Assembly (NCBI GenBank): GCA_003133325.1
Contig: PKXA01000102.1
Coordinates: 170,116 to 203,030 of the forward strand
Length of the DNA stretch: 32,915 nt
Source of the DNA: Acidimicrobiaceae bacterium
GTDB lineage: Bacteria; Actinomycetota; Acidimicrobiia; Acidimicrobiales; RAAP-2
Direction of reading: 5' to 3'
Under the pieces are notes generated by a model. It was not told where the DNA came from. It was given only the letters and a program-made list of their open reading frames with translations, and did no database searches. A program made the position numbers and the translations under genes. Positions 4,061 to 32,915 of the stretch are shown here, one piece after another. Position 1 is the first letter of the stretch, and each line of letters opens with the position of its first letter.

Positions 4061-5242
4061 ATGTCTGGTTCCGTTATCGTCGCTGGTGCCCGCACCCCAA
4101 TCGGCAAATTGTCGGGCGCACTGGGCGGCTTCGCTGCCACCGAGCTCGGTGGCTTCGCCATTGCCGCCGCATTGGAGCGTGCCGGGATCAAGCCCGAACA
4201 GGTCGACTACGTATTTATGGGACAGGTGATCCTGGCCGGGACCGGGCAGATCACCGCGCGTCAGGCCGCGGGCAAGGGCGGGATCCCGATGACCGTGCCG
4301 GCGACCACCGTGAACAAGGTCTGCCTTTCGGGTTTGAACTCCATCTACTTGGCCGACCTGCTGATCAATGCGGGCGAGGCTGACATTGTGGTGGCCGGCG
4401 GCATGGAATCAATGACCCAGGCTCCCTACCTGCTCCCCGGGGCCCGGGCCGGATACCGGATCGGTGACGGCACCCTTGTCGACTCGATGATGTACGACGG
4501 TCTGTTCTGCGCCTTCGACCAGTGCGCCATGGGGCTCGGGACCGAGCGCTACAACGGAGCCGACGGGGTCTCCCGGGAACGCCAAGACGCCTTCAGTGCC
4601 CTCTCCCACGAGCGGGCCGCTGCCGCCATCAAGGACGGCAAGTTCGGCGAAGAGATCGTCGCGGTCAGCGTGCCCCAGCGAAAGGGTGACCCGATCATCG
4701 TCGACACCGATGAGGGAGTTCGGCCCGAAACCACTGCCGAATCCCTGGGCAAGCTCCGGCCCGCCTTCGACAAGTCTGGCACCATCACCGCCGGCAATGC
4801 ATCGCAGATTTCCGACGGTGGCGCCGCCGTCATCGTGATGTCCAAGGCCAAAGCCGAAGAACTGGGTGTGTCCCCGTTGGGCGAACTGGTCAGCTACGGC
4901 CAAGTGGCCGGTCCCGGCCCATCGCTTCTCAATCAGCCGTCCCACGCCACATCAGTGGCCTTGGCCAAGGCCGGTCTGTCGGTCAGCGACATCGATCTGT
5001 TCGAGATCAATGAGGCGTTCGCCGCGGTGGGCCTGGCTTCTGCCGATGACCTCGGAATTTCCGAGGAGAAGGTCAACGTCAATGGGGGTGCCATCGCACT
5101 CGGGCATCCGGTGGGCATGTCTGGGACCCGATTGGCATTGACGGCTCTTCTCGAGCTCAAGCGTCGGGGCGGGGGAACGGCGGCCGTCAGCCTGTGCGGT
5201 GGTGGCGGCCAAGGCGACGCCGCGGTGCTCCGCACGCTGTAG
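4061..5242 (+). CDS. Acetyl-CoA C-acetyltransferase (thiolase)
   Basis: 393 residues, full length for a type II thiolase. It condenses two acetyl-CoA to acetoacetyl-CoA, or runs in reverse in fatty-acid breakdown, in the cytoplasm. The nucleophile C88 lies in TTVNKVCLSGLNSI, the NEAFA motif is present in EINEAFAAVGLAS, H349 lies in GHPVGMSG, and the second catalytic C379 is in CGGGGQGDA. A GGAGG ribosome-binding site starts 10 bases upstream of the ATG. It is divergently transcribed from the carboxylase/reductase and epimerase genes. This suggests it feeds acetoacetyl-CoA, and after reduction and dehydration crotonyl-CoA, into the ethylmalonyl-CoA module, although the intermediate enzymes are not in this window. 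Confidence 0.93.
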   Translation: MSGSVIVAGARTPIGKLSGALGGFAATELGGFAIAAALERAGIKPEQVDYVFMGQVILAGTGQITARQAAGKGGIPMTVPATTVNKVCLSGLNSIYLADLLINAGEADIVVAGGMESMTQAPYLLPGARAGYRIGDGTLVDSMMYDGLFCAFDQCAMGLGTERYNGADGVSRERQDAFSALSHERAAAAIKDGKFGEEIVAVSVPQRKGDPIIVDTDEGVRPETTAESLGKLRPAFDKSGTITAGNASQISDGGAAVIVMSKAKAEELGVSPLGELVSYGQVAGPGPSLLNQPSHATSVALAKAGLSVSDIDLFEINEAFAAVGLASADDLGISEEKVNVNGGAIALGHPVGMSGTRLALTALLELKRRGGGTAAVSLCGGGGQGDAAVLRTL

Positions 5243-10528: not shown

Positions 10529-10638
10529 GTGCGGCGGCCAGGTTGGCTACGGCACACGGCCTGACCCGCTGAGAGCTGCTGCCTTCCGACCCTGACTCGA
10601 TTCACGGGGGACCGTTGCGCAGGACCCGGCCGCCGCAC
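10529..10638 (-). ncRNA. ffs: Signal recognition particle RNA (small bacterial type)
   Basis: On the minus strand the conserved apical loop GGAAGG (10582-10587) sits in the context GTCAGGGTCGGAAGGCAGCAGC-like, the Ffh-binding domain of bacterial SRP RNA. The ends GTGCGGCGGCC and GGCCGCCGCAC pair over 11 perfect base pairs (10628-10638 with 10529-10539), closing a hairpin of about 110 bases, the expected size. The position just upstream of dnaX and next to tRNA-Ser matches the arrangement known in mycobacteria. The exact ends may differ by a few bases. Confidence 0.88.
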
Positions 10639-10786: not shown

Positions 10787-10874
10787 GGAGGCGTGCGAGA
10801 GCGGCCGAATCGGCACGATTGGAAATCGTGTGTGGGGAAACTCACCGTGGGTTCAAATCCCACCGCCTCCGCCA
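10787..10874 (+). tRNA. tRNA-Ser (anticodon GGA)
   Basis: An 88-base type II tRNA. The acceptor GGAGGCG (10787-10793) pairs with CGCCTCC (10864-10870); the anticodon arm CACGA-TTGGAAA-TCGTG carries GGA at 10821-10823; a long variable arm and the T loop TTCAAAT follow. CCA is encoded at 10872-10874. The next start codon (tadA) lies one base after the CCA. Confidence 0.97.
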
Positions 10875-28567: not shown

Positions 28568-29212
28568 TCAGTCGAGCAACAGACGGCACCAGGCATCAGC
28601 CAGCCAGCGCTCGTACCGATCGGGCGACCAACCCCGCTCACTGGTGAGCATCACATACAGTTCTGGGCTGTTGGTCACCCACACAACGTCGGCGGCCTCA
28701 TCGATCGACAGACCCTTGCGAACTCGTCCTGCGTCACCCAGGTCACGAATGAGCTTTCGCATGTTCGTAGCTCGGCGATCGCTGATCTCTTGCCATATCA
28801 CGCGCGCTTCCGGCTCGGTGGATGAGGCATCTCGCAGTGCCAAGAAGAGCGGTGCGATGCGCTCCTGGGTCTCTCGTATGGCGCGCGCATAGATGGCCAG
28901 TTTCTTCACCGGGTCGGGCTCCGCCCGCATCACTCTGACATGGTCGCGTTCCTCAGCGACCACGGCGTGGTCAGCCCCGGAGATCGCCTGCTCGATCAGC
29001 TCACGTAGCAAGACGGGCTTGCGACCCACCAGCTCGTAGATCGTATCGACGTTGACGCCAGCTCGCAGAGCGACATCGGCAATCGTCGTTGCCCGGTAGC
29101 CGCGCTCCAACATGAGGTCTCGAGCTGCCACGACAATTCGCTGCCTGGTGTCGGCCGAACGCGCCCTGCGCAGGGCGGCGTCGTAGGAGCGTCGCTTGAC
29201 TTCTCTGCCCAT
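28568..29212 (-). CDS. TetR-family transcriptional regulator
   Basis: 214 residues from the ATG at 29212; the longer frame runs into the divergent gene and is not used. The N-terminal helix-turn-helix is clear: DTRQRIVVAARDLMLERGYR, ATTIADVALRAGVNVDTIYE and LVGRKPVLLRELI (residues 21-73). The C-terminal ligand domain is helical. It is divergent from the small protein at 29267, with 54 bases between them holding a TCCGAA/TTCGGA inverted repeat, so it probably represses that gene and itself in response to a small molecule. The ligand is unknown. Confidence 0.9.
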   Translation of the reverse strand: MGREVKRRSYDAALRRARSADTRQRIVVAARDLMLERGYRATTIADVALRAGVNVDTIYELVGRKPVLLRELIEQAISGADHAVVAEERDHVRVMRAEPDPVKKLAIYARAIRETQERIAPLFLALRDASSTEPEARVIWQEISDRRATNMRKLIRDLGDAGRVRKGLSIDEAADVVWVTNSPELYVMLTSERGWSPDRYERWLADAWCRLLLD

Positions 29213-29227
29213 CTGGTCGATTATTGT

Positions 29228-29244
29228 TCCGAATCCACTTCGGA
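29228..29244. promoter_or_regulatory. Candidate TetR operator (inverted repeat)
   Basis: TCCGAA (29228-29233) and TTCGGA (29239-29244) form a perfect inverted repeat with a 5-base spacer. It sits midway in the 54-base gap between the divergent regulator and small protein genes, the normal place for an autoregulated TetR operator. Confidence 0.55.
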
Positions 29245-29266
29245 TCAAGTCTCGGAGGCTTCTGCC

Positions 29267-29560
29267 GTGACCTATGCATTCACCCAGGACGTACCGATCG
29301 ACTCCACCTTCTACCAGCGCATCGTGGCAGGGCTCGGCGACGAGCCGCCGAAGGGACTCATCACGCACATCGCCATCGAACGCTCAGAGGGCGGGCTCCG
29401 GTACATCGACGTGTGGGAGTCAGAAGAGGACTGTGACAGCTTCGGCGAGGAACGCCTTCACCCGGTAGTCCACGGACTTCTCGCCGAGATCTTCGGCAAC
29501 GATCTGCCCGCAGAACCCGAGCGCATCCCGCTTTCGGTGATCCACGTCTGGGGCCCATAG
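29267..29560 (+). CDS. Small ABM-like (dimeric alpha/beta barrel) protein
   Basis: 97 residues from a GTG at 29267 with GGAGG 8 bases upstream. The pattern resembles the ferredoxin-like fold of the antibiotic-biosynthesis-monooxygenase group: strand GLITHIAIERSEGGLRYIDV-W, then helix ESEEDCDSFGEERLHPVVHGL and a closing strand IPLSVIHVWGP. No catalytic residues are known for this branch. Divergent from, and probably controlled by, the TetR gene at 28568-29212. A second protein of similar size and fold lies at 31258. Confidence 0.7.
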   Translation: MTYAFTQDVPIDSTFYQRIVAGLGDEPPKGLITHIAIERSEGGLRYIDVWESEEDCDSFGEERLHPVVHGLLAEIFGNDLPAEPERIPLSVIHVWGP

Positions 29561-29764
29561 ACCCACCATCCCGGCCACAACGACGGCACACAACCAGAAG
29601 CCGCGGTGGCTGTTGTCGGGTGAGTAGCGATTGAAATGGGATGCCCCTGGCTGCACCGTGCCACCACGGCTCGAGAGTGCTTTCTCTGACGCCGGTCGGA
29701 CGGCTGCAGTTCTGACGATCAGCGGCAGTGTGGAAGTGCCGGCCCTCTGCCTCTGTGGCCTGAC

Positions 29765-30382
29765 TCAGATCTTCCCGACTCGCTTGCCGAAGACGTGCTC
29801 AGTGAACATGGCGACGGCGTCGTCGATGAGGCGAATGTATCGGCTGCCGTCTGGATCATTGGCGAGCTGCTGGCTGGCCAGCCCGGCAACGAGAGCCGTC
29901 CACAGGTCGAAGTCAGCGTCATCGCCGAACCCGACGGCGGCGAGGGAAGACCGGCCCCTGGCAAAGACCTCGACGGCGATGGCGTAGGACTCCGGCGATG
30001 GCTCGAAGTCGGGGATCGTGCGCATGAACAGCAGTTCGTAGCGCGCCCGGTCCTCGGCGGCGAAGCTCACAAAGAAACGGGCCAGTGCAGAGAGCACTTG
30101 GGAGGGGTCGTCGCTGACCTCGATTCGTTCGAAGCGGGTCAGTAACTGGCGGTTACCGTCGGCGAAGAGGTGGTCATAGACGGCGTGCTTCGAGGCGAAG
30201 TACGTATAGAGCGACTGGGGCTCCATATCCACGGCACGTCCGAGCGCCCGTAGGGACAATCCATTGAGGCCGTCAGCCCGCACCATCTTCCATGCGGCGT
30301 CAAGGATCTCGTGCTTGGTCGCTTCATGGCGCACATGCCGGCGGTCGCGGCGGATGGTGTCGGTGGGAATCGCAGAAGTCAC
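29765..30382 (-). CDS. TetR-family transcriptional regulator
   Basis: 205 residues from the GTG at 30382; a TAAGAT box at 30389-30394 ends 6 bases upstream, suggesting a leaderless transcript. The helix-turn-helix spans about residues 20-68 (ATKHEILDAAWKMVRADGLN, LSLRALGRAVDMEPQSLYTY, FASKHAVYDHLF). The C-terminal part (FEPSPESYAIAVEVFARGRS, DFDLWTALVAGLASQQLAND) resembles the WHG/TetR_C_33-type effector domain. It is divergent from the three-gene unit at 30468-32303, and the gap contains paired GTAT-CGGATA repeats, so it likely controls that unit and itself. Confidence 0.9.
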   Translation of the reverse strand: MTSAIPTDTIRRDRRHVRHEATKHEILDAAWKMVRADGLNGLSLRALGRAVDMEPQSLYTYFASKHAVYDHLFADGNRQLLTRFERIEVSDDPSQVLSALARFFVSFAAEDRARYELLFMRTIPDFEPSPESYAIAVEVFARGRSSLAAVGFGDDADFDLWTALVAGLASQQLANDPDGSRYIRLIDDAVAMFTEHVFGKRVGKI

Positions 30383-30421
30383 CCCTTGATCTTACACTGC
30401 GGTGGCGCGATCATCCTGATA

Positions 30422-30451
30422 GTATTCGGATACCCGATGAGTATACGGATA
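30422..30451. promoter_or_regulatory. Candidate operator (two direct GTATnCGGATA repeats)
   Basis: GTATTCGGATA (30422-30432) and GTATACGGATA (30441-30451) match at 10 of 11 positions with starts 19 bases apart. Each is itself partly symmetric (GTAT ... ATAC in the first). They lie between the divergent TetR gene and the DinB-like gene and end just before its ribosome-binding site. Confidence 0.55.
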
Positions 30452-30467
30452 GTTGAGAGGCTCCGCC

Positions 30468-31220
30468 ATGGAGATGGTCACGATTGACGCAGGCGTCACA
30501 GCTCCCCTCGGGCACCGCGAGGCGATGAAGTTGGCAGAGGGCGAGTTCGGACAGATGATTGCCCAGTTGCGCGGCCTGTCCACCGACGACTGGGGCCTGC
30601 CCACCGTGTGCCAGCTGTGGGACGTGCGCACCATGGCCAGCCACGTGCTCGCCATGGCCGAGTCACAAGCCTCGTTGCGTCAGTTTGCCCATGACTTCCG
30701 GGCGGCGAGCAAGAGGTCGGGCGGGAAGATGATCGACGCCATGACCGCCACCCAGGTCAGCGAGCGCTCATCCCTGACTCCCGAGGCCATCATCAGTCGC
30801 CTGCAAGCCGTCGCCCCCAAGTCCGTACGGGCGCGGCGGCGCACACCCGCTCCTATGCGCTGGGGTGTGCGCATGAAGCAAGATCCGCCCTTCGACGCCG
30901 AACGGTGGCGATTCGGCTATCTGGTCGACACCATCTTCACTCGGGATACCTGGATGCACCGCCTCGACATCAGCCGAGCCACCGGTCATCAAATGACCCT
31001 TACGGCCGACCACGATGGACGGCTGGTTGACGACGTTGTCGGCGAGTGGGCTCGCCGACATGGCCAGCCGTTCAATCTCACCCTCACCGGCCCGGCAGGT
31101 GGTAGGTGGCAAGTGGACGGTGGCGGCGAGCAACTCGACCTCGACGCCCTCGACTTCTGCTGGTTTGTCGGCTCACGGCAACAGGGCACCGGCCTCCTCG
31201 CCACCGAAGTACCCTTCTGA
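30468..31220 (+). CDS. DinB/mycothiol-dependent maleylpyruvate isomerase-like protein
   Basis: 250 residues from the ATG at 30468, with GAGAGG 7 bases upstream. The N-terminal four-helix DinB-like part shows LSTDDWGLPTVCQLWDVRTM-ASHVLAMAES (about 37-66), which matches the mycothiol-dependent maleylpyruvate isomerase N-domain, with H59 a likely metal ligand. A second histidine lies in FTRDTWMHRLDISRATGH (about residues 160-175). The C-terminal part (FNLTLTGPAGGRWQVDGGG ... DLDALDFCWFVGSRQQGTGL) matches the sterol-carrier-like MDMPI C-domain. Such proteins are usually thiol-S-transferases or isomerases using mycothiol. It heads a three-gene unit facing a TetR regulator. Confidence 0.82.
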   Translation: MEMVTIDAGVTAPLGHREAMKLAEGEFGQMIAQLRGLSTDDWGLPTVCQLWDVRTMASHVLAMAESQASLRQFAHDFRAASKRSGGKMIDAMTATQVSERSSLTPEAIISRLQAVAPKSVRARRRTPAPMRWGVRMKQDPPFDAERWRFGYLVDTIFTRDTWMHRLDISRATGHQMTLTADHDGRLVDDVVGEWARRHGQPFNLTLTGPAGGRWQVDGGGEQLDLDALDFCWFVGSRQQGTGLLATEVPF

Positions 31221-31257
31221 CGAGGATCGAGCCTTGCTACCTCCAAAGGACGTCGCC

Positions 31258-31551
31258 ATGAGTCTCACCGCAGTCACCCGCTTCCACTCCGCGGCCGGCC
31301 AAGAAGATGCACTGGTCGAGTTGCTCACTGAGGGACGCAACCGAATGCGATCTGCCGAGGGCTGCCAGTCTTTCGACGTGTTTCGGGACGAGGCCGAGGC
31401 CCAATCGTTCATGTTCGTTCAGCAGTGGTCATCGCATGAGGCCCACGATGCTGCCTTCGCCGAGCTGATTCTGCAAAGCGGCCATCTCGAAAAGGTAATT
31501 GCAGCGCTCGACGAGCCCATTGTCCAGAACATCTATGAAGTTGTTCCATAG
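31258..31551 (+). CDS. Antibiotic biosynthesis monooxygenase (ABM) domain protein
   Basis: 97 residues from the ATG at 31258, with AAAGGA 7 bases upstream. The ABM fold is recognisable: LTAVTRFHSAAGQEDALVEL, the EGCQSFDVFRDEAEAQSFMF core with the family's G-C-x-x-[FY] pattern, and the WSSHEAHDAAF helix. Members are cofactor-free oxygenases or quinol-handling enzymes that act as dimers. It follows the DinB-like gene by 37 bases and precedes the diiron-type MBL gene by 29 bases, all in one direction. Confidence 0.88.
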   Translation: MSLTAVTRFHSAAGQEDALVELLTEGRNRMRSAEGCQSFDVFRDEAEAQSFMFVQQWSSHEAHDAAFAELILQSGHLEKVIAALDEPIVQNIYEVVP

Positions 31552-31580
31552 TCGCTTCACCCAACCACAGGGGCCCAACC

Positions 31581-32303
31581 GTGACCACGAATCTCGACGA
31601 GATCGCGCCCAATATCTACCGGCTGTCTACCTTTGTCCCCGACATCGGGCCGACCGGGTTCACGTTCAACCAGTTTCTGCTCGATGACGACGAGCCGCTC
31701 CTGTTCCACACCGGCCACCGTTCGATGTTCCCGTCGATCTCCGAGGCCATCGAGCGTGTCATGCCGGTGGATCGCCTCCGGTGGATCACATTCGGCCATG
31801 TCGAATCCGACGAGTGTGGCGCGATGAACGAGTTGCTCGCAGTCGCGCCGAACGCCCAGGTCGCTCATGGGGCACTCGGGTGCATGGTCTCGGTAAACGA
31901 AATGGCCGACCGGCCTCCGCTCCCATTGGCAGACGGTGAGATCATCGAGCTGGGCACGAAGCGCGTGCGTCACATCGATACCCCCCATGTCCCGCACGGC
32001 TGGGACGCCCGGGTCCTCTATGAGGAGACGACGGGCACCTTGCTGTGCGGCGACCTCTTCACCCACCTCGGAGATGGACCCGCGCTCACCACCGATGACA
32101 TCGTCGAACCGGCCATGGCAGCCGAAACGATGTTCCGAAGCACCTCCCTCGCTCCCGACACCGCAATCGTCATGCGCCGCCTCGGCGACCTGGCTCCGAA
32201 CACCCTGGCCTTGATGCATGGCTCGTCATTCAGCGGCGACAGCGCCAAGGCGTTGTACGACCTTGCCGCCGCCTACGAGTCGCAGTACCTCTCGCCCTCC
32301 TGA
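31581..32303 (+). CDS. Diiron metallo-beta-lactamase-fold protein (flavodiiron/ODP-like, no flavodoxin)
   Basis: 240 residues from a GTG at 31581 (CAGGGG upstream). The metal ligands are H73-x-E75-x-D77 in FGHVESDECGAMN, H136 in TPHVPHG, D158 in LLCGDLFTHLGDG and H213 in LMHGSSFSGD. The H-x-E-x-D form is the diiron signature of flavodiiron proteins and the stand-alone oxygen-binding ODP group rather than the zinc H-x-H-x-D-H form. The residue after D77 is Glu rather than His. Such proteins bind or reduce O2 or NO. The flavodoxin domain is missing, so a separate electron donor, or a sensing role, is likely (inference). Last gene of the TetR-facing unit. Confidence 0.87.
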   Translation: MTTNLDEIAPNIYRLSTFVPDIGPTGFTFNQFLLDDDEPLLFHTGHRSMFPSISEAIERVMPVDRLRWITFGHVESDECGAMNELLAVAPNAQVAHGALGCMVSVNEMADRPPLPLADGEIIELGTKRVRHIDTPHVPHGWDARVLYEETTGTLLCGDLFTHLGDGPALTTDDIVEPAMAAETMFRSTSLAPDTAIVMRRLGDLAPNTLALMHGSSFSGDSAKALYDLAAAYESQYLSPS

Positions 32304-32915
32304 CACGTACCCGGACTTGAGATGACTGTCGATCATCGGCAGGCACTCATCGCGGGCACTCTCATCCAGTATCGACCTTTGCGCTACACGGATCGTTCGC
32401 CGAAAACGGGATGAACCTGGCGCCACTCGGAACCGGCGGAACGGGCGGCGTACATATTCGGTGCCCGCACCGAGGTGACGTCGACGTTCCGAATGGTCCA
32501 ACAGAATCTCAGGCCGGGACTCCGAGGTCGCGCAGCCAACCACACCATGCTCGCACGGCAATGCCCGTCTTGCTCAGTATCCAGTAGACCGATGTCTCCT
32601 GTCCGTGGCAACTCTTATGTCGAATCGGTGATTATGCGGAACCGAGCCGAGGTAACGGCCGTTGCCACTGGTCAGCGTGGGTATGGACCACTGAGCGGTT
32701 CGGCATAATCACAAACCCTTGGCGCAAATTTCTCCCATCGATTGTCCGAAGTGAGGAGTCAGGTCATGTCAGGGGATTGGGGCGCCAAGATGGGTGCCTG
32801 GTGATCTCCCCCGCGTAGGGACTCGAACGTGTCGCCCGCCTACCGGAAGCAGAATGATGCACGGCTACCGGATCATGACACCGGCGACACTCGCCCGGAC
32901 TATGTGAGGGTTGGC
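32304..32915. other. 612 bases without a convincing gene
   Basis: Short frames on both strands look like shadows without ribosome-binding sites or recognisable motifs. The region carries the TTATG-motif repeats at 32614-32712 and a GGCGCC/GGTGCC stem near 32783-32800. From a GTG at 32829 a frame stays open for 29 codons to the window edge and could be the start of a gene, but nothing supports it beyond openness. Confidence 0.5.
32628..32712. repeat. 18-bp inverted repeat flanking 49 bases, with a third motif copy
   Basis: GTGATTATGCGGAACCGA (32628-32645) and GCGGTTCGGCATAATCAC (32695-32712) are reverse complements at 16 of 18 positions. A further copy in direct orientation, TTATGTCGAATCG, lies at 32615-32627. 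The shared core is TTATG-[TC]-[CG]-GAA-[TC]-CG. Such spacing resembles paired recombinase sites or an element end. Confidence 0.75.

Follow-up and report, generated by a model that had tools for sequence, protein, structure and literature searches.

Flavodiiron proteins such as ROO, FprA and flavorubredoxin hold a diiron site in a metallo-beta-lactamase (MBL) fold and carry a flavodoxin/FMN domain. Their seventh iron ligand is a His (His88 in C. difficile numbering; reference set in PMC6033852), and the acidic ligand set is described as accompanying iron in these proteins (PMC7785958). The ODP proteins of spirochaetes and Thermotoga consist of a stand-alone MBL domain of family PF19583. Another stand-alone protein of this type, P0002, is encoded at positions 31581–32303 (+ strand) of a 32,915 nt stretch of DNA from an Acidimicrobiaceae bacterium (contig PKXA01000102.1; this whole stretch is the window analyzed here). 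It belongs to a locus that also encodes a TetR-family regulator, a DinB-type protein related to mycothiol-dependent maleylpyruvate isomerase (MDMPI) and a small ABM-fold protein. The conserved core of this locus is TetR-MDMPI-MBL, mostly an overlapping operon, and not the trio that includes the ABM gene.

P0002 resembles flavodiiron proteins in its fold and in six of the seven diiron ligands, whose spacing matches. It differs in that the flavodoxin/FMN domain is absent and the seventh ligand, His, is replaced by Glu, a departure from the H-E-D-H-H-D-H set that gives the motif HxExDE. It is similar to ODP in being a stand-alone PF19583 domain that scores above the curated cut-off. The HxExDE motif is a difference from ODP, and the T. 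maritima protein is described as having another ligand set (PMC7785958). The subfamily of P0002 also differs from ODP in its adjoining genes, which are of TetR, TPR/LuxR-like, DinB-type and VOC families.

The closest described relatives of the DinB-type protein, P0001, are MDMPI and mycothiol S-transferase (MST) of the DinB/STL superfamily. P0001 has the fold of MDMPI (structure 2nsf) and an MST-like His/Asp/His pattern, but its identity to 2nsf is 14% over 213 aligned residues and it sits in a TetR-MBL operon. DinB-type genes under an adjacent regulator are also present in the SiwR-controlled dinB-like operon of M. smegmatis, which is reported to be upregulated on genotoxic stress, including H2O2 (PMC10693628). 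The SiwR operon differs in having a WYL-domain activator and not TetR, and the abstract of that report makes no mention of an MBL protein (PMC10693628). Glyoxalase I/II is similar to relatives of the locus with the order TetR-MBL-VOC, where a member of a thiol-enzyme superfamily (VOC) is encoded next to an MBL-fold protein. The hydrolytic motif of glyoxalase II is HxHxDH. The MBL proteins described here differ in that they have the acidic HxExD set of flavodiiron proteins, with HxExDE in place of the hydrolytic site. The component protein families are already known; no description of their combination, or of the HxExDE subfamily, was found in the open-licence literature searched.

Locus layout and conserved gene core

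The TetR gene (P0003) is at positions 29765–30382 on the - strand (PF00440, 34.4 bits against a Pfam cut-off of 24), with a GTG start codon whose assignment is uncertain. An 85 bp gap (positions 30383–30467) separates it from three + strand genes. These are P0001 at positions 30468–31220 (PF11716, 48.7 bits against 24.2), the ABM-fold protein P0006, a putative cofactor-free monooxygenase, at positions 31258–31551 (PF03992, 46.3 bits against 23.1) and P0002 (PF19583 'ODP', 46.1 bits against 27.2). An earlier sequence-only reading had assigned the four open reading frames to these families, and the scores above the Pfam cut-offs bear this out. The gaps between the + strand genes are 37 nt (MDMPI-ABM) and 29 nt (ABM-MBL), and no terminator-like site is found at positions 29500–32915, where 1.4 are expected by chance. 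The spacing fits a single transcription unit, in agreement with what that reading had predicted for the three genes. The contig stops at base 203030, 612 bases past the MBL gene, so genes further downstream are unseen. By its nearest named relatives the window would come from an Acidimicrobiales-like actinobacterium. The same gene order is present in an Acidimicrobiales metagenome-assembled genome, L031. Comparison with L031 gives dN/dS values of 0.16 (TetR), 0.30 (MDMPI), 0.05 (ABM) and 0.18 (MBL), and from these low values all four genes look like maintained proteins.

A sample of 298 genomes, drawn evenly from the order, was searched for MBL genes (E 1e-40) and MDMPI genes (E 1e-30). MBL is present in 54 genomes (59 places), MDMPI in 35 and both in 22, which corresponds to a Fisher odds ratio of 12 (P 2.2e-10, uncorrected for relatedness). 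In 16 of the 22 genomes, from 9 families by hand count, the two genes share a contig and are no more than 1.6 kb apart. A further genome (G178) has an MDMPI fragment at a contig edge before the MBL gene. The 59 MBL places include 12 with TetR-MDMPI-MBL, two with MDMPI-MBL at a contig edge, three with MDMPI downstream, the window itself, five with TetR-MBL and 15 with a TPR/LuxR-like gene before MBL. The MDMPI stop codon and an MBL start codon overlap (TGATG or TAATG) at 11 of the 12 TetR-MDMPI-MBL junctions. TetR-MDMPI-MBL is also the gene order in the cultured relative Ilumatobacter nonamiensis (L065).

The sequence-only reading had grouped MDMPI, ABM and MBL as a trio. The tie between TetR, MDMPI and the diiron-type MBL is wide, reaching the 9 families, but ABM is not part of it. 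Among the loci examined, ABM is near the other two genes only in the window's family (G000, G001, G052, G069 and G004) and in one further record, L099, where it is downstream on the other strand; the ABM profile applied to these loci derives from 2 sequences and may overlook distant ABM genes. A search of 120 genomes finds ABM at 9 places in six genomes, which all belong to the window's family and include the window's own genome. The ABM gene directly follows MDMPI in G000, G001, G004 and G064, follows MBL in G069 and at one G052 locus, and is elsewhere at three G052 places. The four copies in G052 are in a 6.9 Mb assembly of 9% contamination, possibly a mixture. In G004 the same neighborhood is rearranged, and MDMPI-ABM is apart from the MBL gene in both G004 and G064. 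The ABM gene is an optional accessory. ABM-fold proteins can also have roles other than that of a cofactor-free oxygenase.

Two other arrangements recur. Among the best-scoring 80 of 432 GTDB loci, a biased selection, TetR is directly before MBL in 10, and in 8 of these a VOC gene directly follows MBL. In the order sample VOC follows MBL at two of the five TetR-MBL places (L123 and L125, the genomes of L040 and L039) and also in L170. Nine loci (L039, L040, L042, L043, L045, L052, L058, L070 and L111) have a 144 aa glyoxalase-superfamily protein directly after an HxExDE MBL, with residues H10, H78 and E136 invariant in the nine sequences. Two genomes (L052 and G004) have both a TetR-MBL-VOC unit and a TetR-MDMPI unit. 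The large TPR proteins are directly upstream of MBL in L124, L127, L129, L131–L133, L135, L136, L139 and others. The TPR/LuxR-like label rests on three proteins chosen from crude gene calls, of which one has GerE and two have a TPR model above cut-off, the third having TPR below it; one of the 15 places (L128) rests on a 41-bit fragment. Some genomes are in both collections, e.g., L039/L125, L040/L123, L048/L130, L054/L117, L041/L119, L011/L062, L025/L066 and L010/L084.

A quick tree of 127 MBL sequences requires 14 changes in the MDMPI label, at least six of which are forced by well-supported branches. Shuffled labels require a mean of 25.8 changes, and none of 500 shuffles is as low as 14; the label is therefore clustered yet has changed many times. 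A comparison of distances at 25 collinear or window loci gives a correlation of r 0.81 between MDMPI and TetR. A TetR of the same family is also in front of MDMPI at five of seven fetched MDMPI places that have no adjacent MBL. By these sequence comparisons TetR and MDMPI are a stable pair, which MBL appears to have joined several times, with gains and losses not told apart. A single inherited neighborhood would be a weaker argument for function than this repeated joining. The branch with the window's MBL (L031, L032, L033 and L037) is mostly without partners, and the place of MBL behind ABM thus looks recent.

The MBL and MDMPI/DinB-type proteins

P0002 is 240 aa in length, and PF19583 is its sole Pfam match above cut-off. 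No flavodoxin/FMN domain is found above cut-off in the Pfam scan, so the protein cannot be a complete flavodiiron reductase. By sequence, the closest proteins of solved structure are an ROO-type flavodiiron protein, nitric oxide reductase, FprA and ODP. The best Foldseek matches of the AlphaFold2 model (mean pLDDT 83.3) are flavodiiron cores, and the matches also include ODP structures. Segments 100–104 and 137–142 of the model are of low confidence and the latter includes the ligand H139; for this reason the geometry of the site was not read from the model.

The MBL set consists of 142 sequences, or 127 after short, broken and identical ones are dropped (the ligand table has 128 rows, since the window enters twice). 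H73, E75, D77, H139, D158 and H213 are each conserved in at least 126 of the 127 distinct sequences. Position 78 has Glu in 126 of them and Asp in the remaining one. These ligand-type residues suggest that P0002 binds iron. The motif also occurs in all seven proteobacterial plasmid relatives that were examined, the most distant of which has 40% identity to P0002; in the relative from a K. pneumoniae plasmid the simple patterns for the later ligands are unmatched though HxExDE is present. A distant relative of 29% identity (L024) does not have the motif. Nine of 13 plasmid records are annotated as 'MBL fold metallo-hydrolase' and the other four have no listed feature. This annotation clashes with the ligand set, which is that of an iron redox site. 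The relatives on K. pneumoniae plasmid pGES-GZ (L207) and on a Comamonas plasmid (L210) have insertion elements and drug-resistance genes nearby. Given the HxExDE motif, they are unlikely to act as beta-lactamases.

The window's own genome has one MBL copy. More distant second copies are present in two genomes of the same genus, L112 (G004:C37, 56% identity) and L113 (G001:C121, 49% identity), with none of the sought partner genes alongside. At L037 the MBL gene is closely preceded by one for a DtxR-type iron-dependent repressor with a FeoA domain (positions 4179–4838), as would be expected if MBL is an iron protein.

P0001 matches TIGR03083 with 66.3 bits (cut-off 50) and is below the cut-off of the narrower NCBIfam models that it matches. 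Its AlphaFold2 model (pLDDT 90.6) has MDMPI structure 2nsf as the top fold match, with Z 15.7 and a root mean square deviation of 4.8; the next entry outside MDMPI has Z 11.7. The M. tuberculosis MST structure 8f5v is at rank 22 with Z 8.7, within the usual level for helical bundles. A profile of the MDMPI proteins gives no match to PDB sequences at E 0.1. Residues H59, D160 and H164 are invariant in 16 MDMPI-type sequences, and from their pattern they are candidate metal ligands. Classical maleylpyruvate isomerase has Glu in place of Asp in its metal triad. M. tuberculosis MST is described as coordinating its metal with two His and one Asp (PMC10950700), and H59/D160/H164 have the same composition. 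P0001 is thus likely to be a mycothiol-dependent isomerase or transferase.

Mycothiol genes were sought as MshC and MshD. MshD is present in the window's genome with 217 bits, above the cut-off of 163.1 that one of 14 control genomes passes. An MshC-like gene is below the cut-off of 485.1, but it scores 417 bits as MshC versus 327 as CysS; the other match in this genome scores 407 bits as CysS versus 283 as MshC. All 14 control genomes give matches to the MshC profile, one above the cut-off and 13 below. Mycothiol synthesis by the host is likely, given the MshD score and the MshC-like gene's higher score as MshC than as CysS.

Possible role of the TetR-MDMPI-MBL unit

Our preferred explanation, held tentatively, is that TetR switches a mycothiol-dependent unit for the handling of an electrophile, in which the diiron-type MBL performs an O2-linked or redox step. 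A small compound, probably electrophilic or hydrophobic, would release the TetR repressor from the operon. The MDMPI/DinB-type metalloenzyme would then use mycothiol to isomerize or conjugate the compound, and in the window's family only, the ABM-type small oxygenase would be made as well. The product or the thiol would undergo an O2-dependent or redox step at the stand-alone flavodiiron-type MBL; as this protein has no flavodoxin domain, it would need an external source of electrons. The best pointer to thiol handling is that the partner alternates between DinB type and VOC type, since transferases of low-molecular-weight thiols are found in both superfamilies, which are described as the two superfamilies of known bacillithiol transferases (PMC10950700). 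The sequence-only reading had suggested a unit responsive to oxygen, nitric oxide (NO) or quinones, which may hold; the present sequence-based results do not favor NO or quinones over other electrophiles.

A parallel to the pathway logic of glyoxalase I/II can also be drawn, although it is rather improbable. A TetR-controlled DinB or VOC thiol-dependent metalloenzyme would be followed by a redox-active diiron HxExDE MBL in place of the hydrolytic glyoxalase II, and the thiol adduct would be oxidized or reduced, not hydrolyzed. The flavodiiron fold would then have a third use, in addition to those in O2/NO reductases and ODP sensors.

Several results weigh against a mycothiol-dependent unit. 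Twenty-one of the 59 MBL places have none of the sought partner families (a class that includes loci cut by contig ends). Together with the 15 places that have a TPR/LuxR-like gene upstream, these indicate that MBL is not bound to thiol enzymes. VOC is absent from three of the five TetR-MBL places in the order sample, and the nearest relatives of the window's MBL besides L031 (L032, L033 and L037) have no partners. MBL distances follow those of MDMPI (r 0.46) and TetR (r 0.36) less than these two follow each other. In the proteobacterial plasmid relatives, of which 7 of 13 records were examined, no common partner was recognized near MBL; mycothiol is described as confined to Actinobacteria (PMC4935862).

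The main rival is that the MBL is an oxygen or iron sensor similar to spirochaete ODP, which would modulate the adjacent TetR or TPR/LuxR-like regulator and have no substrate of its own. P0002 matches PF19583, the ODP family, and its fold matches include ODP structures. The T. denticola ODP is reported to sense oxygen and to be coupled genetically to its chemotaxis receptor (PMC7666581). The gene directly upstream of MBL is TPR/LuxR-like at 15 of the 59 places and TetR at five. However, the commonest layout with TetR couples MBL to the MDMPI gene and not to the TetR gene, the 21 partnerless places have no regulator of the kinds sought, and the MBL distance matrix follows TetR weakly. A sensor role is unlikely.

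It is more doubtful still that TetR-MDMPI, with or without ABM, is one unit and the window's MBL a recent and functionally separate neighbor. The strong covariation of TetR and MDMPI, the separation of MDMPI-ABM from MBL in G004 and G064 and the mostly partnerless branch of the window's MBL are consistent with such an arrangement. The ABM-MBL gap, however, is just 29 nt and is 93% conserved in L031, and MBL is behind TetR-MDMPI on several separate branches, where it usually overlaps MDMPI.

A catabolic or specialized-metabolite tailoring operon, e.g., for an aromatic compound, is equally doubtful. MDMPI would isomerize a ring-cleavage product, and ABM and MBL would act on neighboring intermediates. 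Classical MDMPI works in gentisate breakdown, and ABM proteins tailor polyketides. Extradiol dioxygenases are among the solved sequence relatives of the VOC partner, and a CoA-ligase-like cluster (identified by eye) is near MBL in 4 of 110 loci. Against this, the recognizable wide recurrences in a crude clustering of neighborhoods are TetR, MDMPI, ABM and TPR/LuxR-like genes, and P0001 falls short of the narrower NCBIfam models. The same clustering did not single out VOC, and the absence of catabolic genes from it is therefore weak evidence. Anti-phage defense was rejected, as P0001, P0002, P0003, P0005 (a neighboring protein, see below) and P0006 have no PADLOC match at E 0.01.

The recurrent gene sets provide a handle on the role of the HxExDE subfamily, with two alternative partners of thiol-enzyme type and a TetR whose ligand can be searched for. 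If the mycothiol-dependent unit is confirmed, it would give the flavodiiron fold a third role and add a redox step to mycothiol-based detoxification. If it fails, the hydrolase annotation of HxExDE relatives would still be questionable.

Candidate operators and neighboring genes

P0003 has 38–53% identity to 13 TetR proteins that head TetR-MDMPI-MBL or TetR-MBL operons elsewhere. The sequence-only reading had the TetR gene facing the operon across paired GTAT-CGGATA repeats. The divergent orientation is present in the window; elsewhere a TetR divergent from MDMPI was seen only in the window's genus and in G064, which has MDMPI-ABM without MBL. The direct repeats are also present (positions 30421–30451). 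They consist of AGTATTCGGATA (positions 30421–30432) and AGTATACGGATA (positions 30440–30451), and the match of 11 out of 12 positions is reached by 3 of 1000 dinucleotide shuffles of the 85 bp gap. Alignment of the gap with L031 and G004 shows that the repeats are poorly maintained. The gap is 89% identical in L031, whose TetR is 99% identical, but six of the nine substitutions are in the two copies, and in G004 (TetR 82% identical) the second copy is unrecognizable. It is thus unlikely that the repeats make up the entire operator, and their conservation was rejected as operator evidence. An alternative candidate is the imperfect dyad TCGGATACCCGA (positions 30426–30437), whose CGG-N4-CCG center is present in all three genomes, as read by eye from the alignment without an estimate of chance. 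A scan for sigma-70 promoters gives two sites, both within the MDMPI gene, and none in the gap between TetR and the operon.

Palindromes are found just upstream of TetR in other genomes. One similar to CTATCANTGATAG, which resembles the tet operator, is present in 12 of 31 TetR-MDMPI regions (shuffle mean 1.1) and none of 12 TetR-MBL regions. One similar to TTATACNNNGTATAA is present in 10 of the 12 TetR-MBL regions (shuffle mean 0.08) and 4 of the 31 TetR-MDMPI regions. A few genomes enter these counts twice, and the motifs were picked after part of the same sequences had been viewed, so the comparison with shuffles overstates significance. Autoregulation by TetR would be the natural reading of their position.

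A second TetR gene, P0004, is outside the operon at positions 28568–29212 (- strand; PF00440, 37.6 bits). It is divergent from P0005 (positions 29267–29560, + strand), which encodes a 97 aa protein without a Pfam family. The two genes flank an inverted repeat at positions 29224–29248, TTGTTCCGAA and TTCGGATCAA, with 90% complementarity. The P0004-P0005 pair recurs near an MBL gene in L041 (= L119), L046 (= L008) and L066 (= L025), and without MBL nearby in G004:C9 and G066:C3.

A known RNA element at the locus was rejected, as the Rfam matches at gathering thresholds in the window are just one signal recognition particle (SRP) RNA and three tRNAs. The small bacterial SRP RNA is at positions 10533–10631 (- strand), just ahead of two tRNA-Ser genes (positions 10787 and 11363).

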